5,637 nucleotides of DNA, from the NCBI GenBank assembly GCA_017550765.1, contig JAFZOC010000136.1, positions 1 through 5,637 on the forward strand. The letters run 5' to 3'. The stretch comes from Oscillospiraceae bacterium. Its GTDB lineage: Bacteria > Bacillota_A > Clostridia > Oscillospirales > Oscillospiraceae. Position numbers and translations under genes: made by a program. Shown here piece after piece: positions 1 through 586 of the stretch (the first letter of the stretch is position 1; the number at the start of each line of letters is the position of its first letter). The notes beneath the pieces were generated by a model, which saw only the letters and a list, made by a program, of their open reading frames with translations, had not been told where the DNA came from and did no database searches.

Positions 1-357
1 GAAGCCCTGCTCAAGAGACTCATCGAGGAAGACCCATCCGTCGAGTCGGAGATCGCAGCGGTCAGCAGCGTGGAAGAACTCAAAGAAGTGTTCGCAAAGA
101 GAGGCGTCGAGCTCAGCACGGAAGAGCTGGACGAGCTGTTCGCGAGCGCAACGGGAAGTTTCGCTGAGGGCGAGCTGGATGAAGAGGACATGGATAAAGT
201 CGCAGGCGGCATCAGCCTCAAGCAGGCGCTCTCCGCGTGGAGGGTCGGAGCCCGCATCGGTATCGGCGCGAGGATGATCTACGATCACTTCAAGCATGGT
301 AACGCACAGTACACTTATACGCTGAAGCAGCTGAAGAAGGGCACCATCTTCGGCTGA
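1..357 (+). CDS. Nif11-like leader RiPP/bacteriocin precursor, partial at the 5' end
   Basis: The frame is open from base 1 and ends at TGA 355-357, giving 118 visible residues. The first 70 residues (1-210) read as a Nif11-type leader (the TIGR03798/PF07862 kind): an acidic helical region with EALLKRLIEEDP, then VEELKEVFAKRGVELSTEEL, ending in EEDMDKVAGG. Such leaders are recognised by maturation enzymes and cut after Gly-Gly, commonly by a C39-peptidase ABC exporter. Cleavage here would release a 48-residue core (211-354). The core has no Cys, 8 Lys/Arg, 2 His, one Asp, many Gly/Ala, and a GARIGIGAR stretch containing GxxxG. A GTG at 70 is an unlikely start: it has no Shine-Dalgarno and the leader continues in frame upstream. 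The true start is probably a few codons before the window. A role as secreted antimicrobial or signal peptide is inferred; no modification or export gene is visible. Confidence 0.82.
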   Translation, partial: EALLKRLIEEDPSVESEIAAVSSVEELKEVFAKRGVELSTEELDELFASATGSFAEGELDEEDMDKVAGGISLKQALSAWRVGARIGIGARMIYDHFKHGNAQYTYTLKQLKKGTIFG

Positions 358-373
358 CCGCCATTTTGACGCG

Positions 374-400
374 GCGGCGTCGATGCGGCTCGAGCGCCGC
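374..400 (+). other. GC-rich hairpin downstream of the precursor gene
   Basis: GCGGCG-TCGA (374-383) pairs with TCGA (390-393) and CGCCGC (395-400), leaving one bulged G at 394 and a 6-nt loop. It starts 16 nt after the precursor stop. No T-run follows, so it is not a textbook intrinsic terminator. It could protect the 3' end of the mRNA or act as a weak terminator. Confidence 0.35.
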
Positions 401-413
401 GGAAAGAGCGGGC

Positions 414-438
414 CTGTCTTTGACCTGGAGAAGGACAG
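414..438 (+). other. Second small hairpin in the 358-472 spacer
   Basis: CTGTCTTT (414-421) can pair with AAGGACAG (431-438) over 8 bp, including one G-U, with a 9-nt loop. No T-run follows on either strand. It may be part of the 3' untranslated region of the precursor mRNA. Chance formation is possible. Confidence 0.2.
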
Positions 439-472
439 AAAGATCCCACTCAAAAAGTTCATAAAAACGACG

Positions 473-502
473 AAAAAGGCTCTATCCGATGCGGATAGAG
501 CC
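473..502 (-). terminator. Intrinsic terminator of the tRNA-Pro gene
   Basis: GGCTCTATCC (478-487) and GGATAGAGCC (493-502) form a perfect 10-bp stem with a 5-nt loop. Read on the minus strand, the stem is followed at once by five T (complement of 473-477) and lies 8 nt past the tRNA CCA end. The stem can be extended to 13 bp (475-505) by AAA/TTT. On the plus strand the hairpin is followed by only TTT, so it may also weakly stop transcripts arriving from the precursor gene. Confidence 0.88.
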
Positions 503-510
503 TTTCAAAG

Positions 511-586
511 TGGTCGGAGTGGCGAGACTTGAACTCGCGGCCTCATGGTCCCGAACCATGCGCGCTACCAGCTGCGCTACACCCCG
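511..586 (-). tRNA. tRNA-Pro, anticodon CGG
   Basis: The reverse complement folds as a complete 76-nt tRNA. The acceptor arm CGGGGTG/CACTCCG contains one G-U pair. The D arm is GCGC/GCGC with loop AGCTGGTA. The anticodon stem CATGG/CCATG encloses loop TTCGGGA, with anticodon CGG at plus-strand 551-553. The variable loop is 5 nt, and the T arm GCGAG/CTCGC has loop TTCAAGT. The discriminator is A and CCA is encoded (511-513). It reads CCG proline codons, which suits a GC-rich genome. It is a single-gene unit with its own promoter and terminator, convergent to the precursor gene and divergent from the operon starting at 822. Confidence 0.97.

Follow-up and report, generated by a model that had tools for sequence, protein, structure and literature searches.

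The window, by which we mean the whole stretch of 5,637 nucleotides analysed here, opens with a precursor peptide gene on the forward strand (positions 1..357), whose frame 1 is open from base 1 and closes with a TGA at 355-357. Direct reading of the sequence gives 118 codons plus the stop and a product of 118 aa, with the start codon outside the window because the 5′ end is cut by the contig edge. P0002, a protein of 119 aa that has its own start and is 68% identical to the window protein, begins MNKEELL where the window protein begins EALL; the alignment leaves its MNK unmatched, so the window gene has probably lost about three codons at its 5′ end. Residues 1-70 (1..210, forward strand) make up an acidic, Nif11-type leader ending in VAGG, an assignment drawn from a sub-threshold TIGR03798 match, a profile-profile comparison and PDB entry 9zn4. 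The double-glycine leader end lies at 205..210 on the same strand, and a C39 peptidase would be expected to cut there, after Gly-Gly. The core peptide follows as 48 residues (71-118; 211..354, forward strand); it contains no Cys, two Ser and three Thr, and has a net charge of +7. Cys is absent from the entire open reading frame, leader included. An earlier note on this DNA had described a Nif11-pattern leader, an AGG end and a Cys-free core of 48 residues with five Ser/Thr, and the analysis confirms each of these. It had also named the possibility that the frame is the tail of an unrelated large protein, which we reject: the other seven proteins that share the core are only 98-134 aa long.

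Downstream of the precursor lies a tRNA-Pro gene (CGG anticodon; 511..586, reverse strand, ARAGORN), followed by genes for an M50 protease, a radical SAM protein (TIGR03960, 874 bits against a cut-off of 462), its TIGR03936 partner and a glycosyltransferase. The radical SAM gene is widespread, with relatives encoded on 115 stretches of other genomes, and we do not take its product for a maturase of the peptide. The M50 protease gene (1040-1645; Pfam, 61 bits) stands directly 5′ of the TIGR03960/TIGR03936 pair, and its DNA aligns in the same order in several relatives. Neither an exporter in the window nor a YcaO-type enzyme among the window genes scanned (five with NCBIfam, six with Pfam) was found; the upstream side of the precursor lies beyond the contig edge. 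The closest relative of the radical SAM protein, 91% identical, comes from a goat-omasum Oscillospiraceae genome (G001, locus L001), and the next matches come from genomes labelled Oscillospiraceae, Ruminococcaceae or Clostridiales, several with ruminant names (goat, sheep and others). Judged from these relatives, both the host, apparently an uncultured Oscillospiraceae lineage, and its habitat, mostly ruminant guts, can be proposed.

The tRNA-Pro gene and a probable mobile element

The surroundings of the tRNA-Pro gene were compared with 80 of the 115 stretches that encode a relative of the radical SAM protein. Locus L001 carries two extra copies of the tRNA-Pro 3′ end (window 511-556), of 36 bp (2537-2572) and 46 bp (2794-2839), both identical to the window tRNA and situated about 6 kb from the tRNA-Pro gene of L001 itself. 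The L001 stretch 2537-8843 is an element integrated at tRNA-Pro; genes for a tyrosine integrase, an AAA protein and a protein with a CHC2 zinc finger lie between the two copies and the tRNA. Past the 46-bp copy, the L001 flank resembles the tRNA flanks of L004 (78% over 136 bp, a stretch that includes 15 bp of tRNA) and L003 (72%), and we therefore take this far flank to be native.

A stretch of 53 bp in the window (452..504, no strand assigned), with hairpin stems at about 478-488 and 492-502, matches the element side of L001 and probably represents the end of an integrated element. The local score of this match is 29, against at most 15 in 500 shuffles, and seven other loci and the L001 far flank reach 7-10; of the 30 loci with the tRNA, L001 stands out and 28 have flanks that do no better than shuffles. 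The tRNA-Pro flank of L007 (5586-5705) bears a weak AT-rich likeness to the window flank (score 15 vs 13), a level reached by one of 2000 shuffles. Clear attachment copies were seen in one of the 30 tRNA loci, L001, and L003 has a 20-bp stretch. No DNA match to window 1-451 was found in any of the 80 loci, and about 95 bp separate the stop codon of the precursor from the 53-bp match. Most likely, then, positions 1-510 of the window form the end of a tRNA-Pro-integrated element, whose far copy and integrase would lie beyond the window. Since the DNA between the precursor gene and tRNA-Pro matches the inner element end in L001, the gene is probably cargo of this element.

Leader assignment and the core family

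The earlier note's claim of a Nif11 leader holds at the level of the family. Taken singly, the window protein falls below the curated cut-offs for TIGR03798 (18.1 bits, E 0.0023; cut-off 32.3) and for Pfam PF07862, Nif11 (13.2 bits; cut-off 23.8), and it reaches the cut-off of no family in Pfam, NCBIfam or PHROGs. All nine proteins of our alignment A5 match TIGR03798 at E ≤ 1 (best 2e-6), and a comparison by hhalign of the eight-row family alignment with ten Nif11 precursors of the genus gives a probability of 97.2% (E 3.6e-11), mostly over the leader. The top PDB match of the family profile is likewise a Nif11 domain protein (9zn4, E 1.7e-4). Profile homology therefore supports a leader of Nif11 type that stands outside curated TIGR03798 membership.

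A first search with the window protein returned P0002 as the sole match besides itself, and two further rounds with growing alignments brought the number of proteins sharing the core to eight: the window protein (P0001), P0002, P0003, P0004, P0006, P0007, P0008 and P0009. Common to all eight cores, and absent from six other proteins of the last round, is the motif G-A-R-x-G-x3-R-M-x-Y-D-x4-G-N-A-x3-Y. Relatives keep 39-68% identity to the window protein, and their cores are 47-48 residues long, with one of 59. The eight-row alignment has 20 invariant columns, of which 13 fall in the core, four in the VAGG leader end, which is unchanged in every member, and three elsewhere in the leader. Pairs of members are on average more alike in the core (mean identity 0.54) than in the leader (0.40), and in 23 of the 28 pairs the core is the more similar part. 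This pattern suggests selection on the peptide product.

None of the eight cores contains Cys, which answers the earlier note's question of whether the cores of homologues all lack it; a ninth, distant member, in genome G123, has one. The note's premise that a Cys-free core is unusual behind a Nif11 leader is weak in this lineage. When 40 Nif11 matches of the genus were divided into leader and core, 11 proved to have a Cys-free core, with genome G007 alone supplying four, so the lack of Cys in a single core is unremarkable, and it is the absence across all eight conserved members that is informative. Lanthionine formation needs Cys together with Ser or Thr, and the thioether links of lanthipeptides, sactipeptides and ranthipeptides need Cys in the core. 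We accordingly rejected these three classes for a family with no Cys in any of its eight cores and a single residue in the distant G123 core.

The core appears, on these comparisons, to be a rare family of its own kind, a new core family behind a leader type and with an exporter that are already described. The suggestion that the peptide belongs to a little-described group is supported by a Cys-free core conserved in all eight members. In the libraries searched it corresponds to no named family, and no paper on it appeared among the matches listed, which is no proof of its absence from print.

An AlphaFold2 model built from the eight-row alignment is helical (mean pLDDT 77, pTM 0.74), with helices predicted in the core at residues 73-80, 85-99 and 108-113. 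Mean pLDDT, taken by tens over residues 71-110, is 78, 82, 88 and 84, and it is 65 over residues 111-118. Fold searches returned nothing of weight. The core shows GxxxG spacing, and the family matches models of class II bacteriocins weakly: seven of nine members match Pfam PF10439 (Bacteriocin_IIc; best 4e-4) and five of nine match TIGR03949 (cerein 7B type). The window protein scores 11.2 bits against PF10439 (cut-off 27.1), over residues 58-88, which span the leader end. In peak hydrophobic moment the cores do not clearly surpass their own shuffles, 8-51% of which reach or pass the same value; on this measure of amphipathicity a simple pore-former is not supported.

A distant member and the export clusters of related genomes

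A profile of leader and core, run over 394 genomes of the order, picked out the distant member of G123 (E 1.8e-7, calculated for one genome), which is the sole core relative with gene context. With a core-only profile it was recovered at E 5.1e-4 among 20,579 open reading frames, the next match standing at 1.1, and its core scores 20.0-21.5 bits, with shuffles of the same core reaching no more than 14.1 (16,826 reported of 20,000). Overall it is 21% identical to the window protein.

The neighbouring G123 genes include, in this order, those for a protein-kinase-domain protein, two zinc-ribbon proteins, sigma-70-type factor, HlyD, NHLM ABC1, NHLM ABC2, STAS protein, FHA protein and a kinase-domain protein of 1083 residues, after which the precursor lies on the opposite strand. 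NHLM ABC1, with its C39 peptidase, scores 949 bits (cut-off 853) and NHLM ABC2 scores 735 (cut-off 709), and the HlyD protein stands just below the TIGR03794 cut-off (148 bits against 156). Class III/IV lanthionine synthetase models match the 1083-residue protein in its kinase region only, at 82 bits or less against cut-offs of 575 and 650, and Pfam finds no cyclase in it at E ≤ 0.01. No LanM, YcaO, radical SAM or other recognised maturase was found among the 14 neighbouring proteins scanned with Pfam and/or NCBIfam, a set that excludes L258 12384-15877 and smaller open reading frames. A two-peptide class IIb bacteriocin would have a second peptide encoded nearby; one precursor was seen in the open reading frame list for G123, and the corresponding side of the window gene lies beyond the contig edge. 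Neither a partner nor an immunity gene for the peptide was identified. An integrated element with a 45-bp copy (93%) of a tRNA-Thr 3′ end begins 1 kb from the G123 precursor, which lies outside it.

This context bears on the earlier note's choice between an unmodified bacteriocin and a modification not based on Cys. The first option is favoured by G123, where an NHLM exporter is present and the 14 neighbours scanned include no recognised maturase; the second draws on genome G007, where Cys-free Nif11 cores occur with a radical SAM/SPASM protein and an arginase homologue. At L252 6082-14195 of G007, such cores ending in FFRRW adjoin the radical SAM/SPASM protein, a DUF7005 protein and a UPF0489 homologue of peptide arginases; the last matches the peptide arginase model NF052474 at E 1.8e-57 (195 bits, below the cut-off of 350), making this cluster a candidate for an ornithine-containing RiPP. 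The main rival to our preferred reading is accordingly that the window core, too, is altered by Cys-independent enzymes, such as a radical SAM/SPASM protein or a peptide arginase that would turn conserved Arg into ornithine, and that the product is a modified RiPP. Fitting this, Arg-85 and Arg-91 are invariant in all eight members, and radical SAM and DUF7005 genes recur together in genome G493, beside Nif11 precursors that are arranged in tandem and have short cores with a terminal W (L199 8950-12560). PMC12703449 reports peptide arginases (pfam12640) with Nif11 precursors, and PMC12707348 describes BipC, of the UPF0489 superfamily, as a RiPP arginase. However, no such enzyme is among the 14 scanned neighbours of the G123 member, and the cores of G007 and G493 went unmatched by the core-only profile at E ≤ 10. 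We regard this rival as rather unlikely.

Seven NHLM clusters, picked for their NHLM ABC genes, were compared across the relatives. In four of them, those of G123 (L258 9084-19501 and L197 1-9948), G805 (L198), G1282 (L256) and G078 (L157), NHLM ABC and Nif11 genes are combined with genes for STAS proteins and for FHA, TIR, LRR or protein-kinase proteins. A tyrosine integrase lies near three of the four clusters, and three contain a sigma factor. No paper on a pairing of NHLM/Nif11 genes with STAS/FHA/TIR genes appeared among the matches listed. A second kind, with radical SAM and DUF7005 genes, is represented by the clusters of G007 and G493. The window family is linked to the STAS-containing kind through one distant member, that of G123. 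The peptide might then be a signal or self-recognition ligand for the STAS, FHA, TIR or kinase proteins that accompany the exporter, and not a killing peptide; a core on average more conserved than its leader would suit the ligand of a conserved receptor. Against this, only the G123 cluster has a relative of the core, the cores of the other three being different, contact between the peptide and these proteins is purely hypothetical, and the role of the STAS, FHA and kinase parts may be no more than the control of export. We think this improbable. A bolder version, in our judgement also improbable, would make the peptide the unmodified secreted effector or ligand of a type of mobile island in gut Clostridia that couples an NHLM exporter and Nif11 peptides to a STAS/FHA/TIR/protein-kinase set; its STAS/FHA/TIR proteins would sense the peptide or guard against it, in a peptide-based conflict or self-recognition system.

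Across the genus, 55 of 102 genomes have an ABC2 match over the cut-off and 29 of 102 a Nif11 match at E ≤ 0.01. The window holds no exporter, and G001, the nearest genome, gave neither an ABC2 match at 1e-100 nor a Nif11 match at 0.01; an exporter for the window peptide would therefore have to be encoded in the part of the element beyond the window or at another site. These same absences, at the thresholds used, would also suit a relic, namely an orphan precursor left on a mobile element that lacks an exporter, whose peptide is either not made or not secreted. So would G007, where two of the four precursors and the listed ABC2 matches lie on different contigs. The frame is nevertheless intact, and relatives with the level of identity seen here are unexpected under decay; G007 itself suggests that stray precursors may make use of an exporter encoded far away. 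A relic is very unlikely in our view.

Other Nif11-led genes were seen in passing. Stray precursors with unrelated cores occur at L150 8920-9243 (G007, contig C28) and L152 7895-8311 (G057, contig C70) beside similar neighbours, which we take to be housekeeping genes (acetyl-CoA hydrolase-like and RpiB-like). The L152 precursor and one metagenomic protein, P0010, represent a second type of Nif11-led core, hydrophobic, with several Cys and ending in KKGW. In G019 (L145 9215-9940), a Nif11 leader above the PF07862 cut-off (29.7 bits) and ending in Gly-Gly is followed by a stretch of 163 residues resembling Hint or pretoxin-Hint domains, just below the Pfam cut-offs.

Proposed explanation and comparison with known systems

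We favour, with slightly better than even confidence, the reading that the gene encodes a Nif11-led precursor exported by an NHLM-type system after a Gly-Gly cut, that its helical core, free of Cys crosslinks, acts on other cells, and that it is probable cargo of a tRNA-Pro element. The leader would deliver the peptide to a three-part exporter, consisting of two ABC proteins, one of them with a C39 peptidase, and an HlyD protein; this exporter would cleave after Gly-Gly and export the core. Released with no Cys-based crosslinks, the core would be a short helical peptide, as its GxxxG spacing and three short predicted helices suggest, and it may act on other cells, as a narrow bacteriocin in the first place and as a signal in the second. 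The host would be an uncultured member of the Oscillospiraceae, in which the gene is probably cargo at the end of a tRNA-Pro element.

A Nif11 leader is commonly taken to indicate a modified product rich in Cys. A conserved Cys-free core, linked through the distant G123 relative to an exporter with no recognised maturase, suggests that this leader and exporter also serve peptides that genome mining based on Cys would miss. The core is short enough for direct synthesis, and the STAS/FHA/TIR clusters with related exporters pose the question of what role such peptides play in gut Clostridia.

Among known systems, prochlorosins (N11P lanthipeptides; PMC10783134) share the Nif11-family leader, but the window core has none of the Cys of a lanthipeptide. 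Ornithine RiPPs made with peptide arginases (OspR, FlmR and OhkR; PMC12703449) resemble the G007 cluster, whose Arg-containing Cys-free Nif11 cores adjoin a homologue, whereas no arginase was found with the window core family among the 14 proteins scanned in G123, its one available context. Class II unmodified bacteriocins (PF10439, TIGR03949) have in common with the window family a Gly-Gly leader, a cationic, predicted-helical core, GxxxG spacing and the weak model matches given above; the family differs in its long Nif11 leader, in the two-ABC NHLM exporter of the G123 relative, in a window protein that is above no cut-off and in showing no partner peptide. The Nif11-derived peptides (N11P, TIGR03798) are a further known system, and many of their genes stand beside the exporter trio TIGR03794/03796/03797, according to Haft, Basu and Mitchell (2010, PMC2887384). 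The window leader is under the curated cut-off for that family, and no thiazole/oxazole or lanthionine enzyme was found with the G123 relative; yet the acidic helical leader, the Gly-Gly end and the profile homology are those of N11P, and the G123 relative adjoins the same exporter trio, its HlyD component falling just short of the cut-off.
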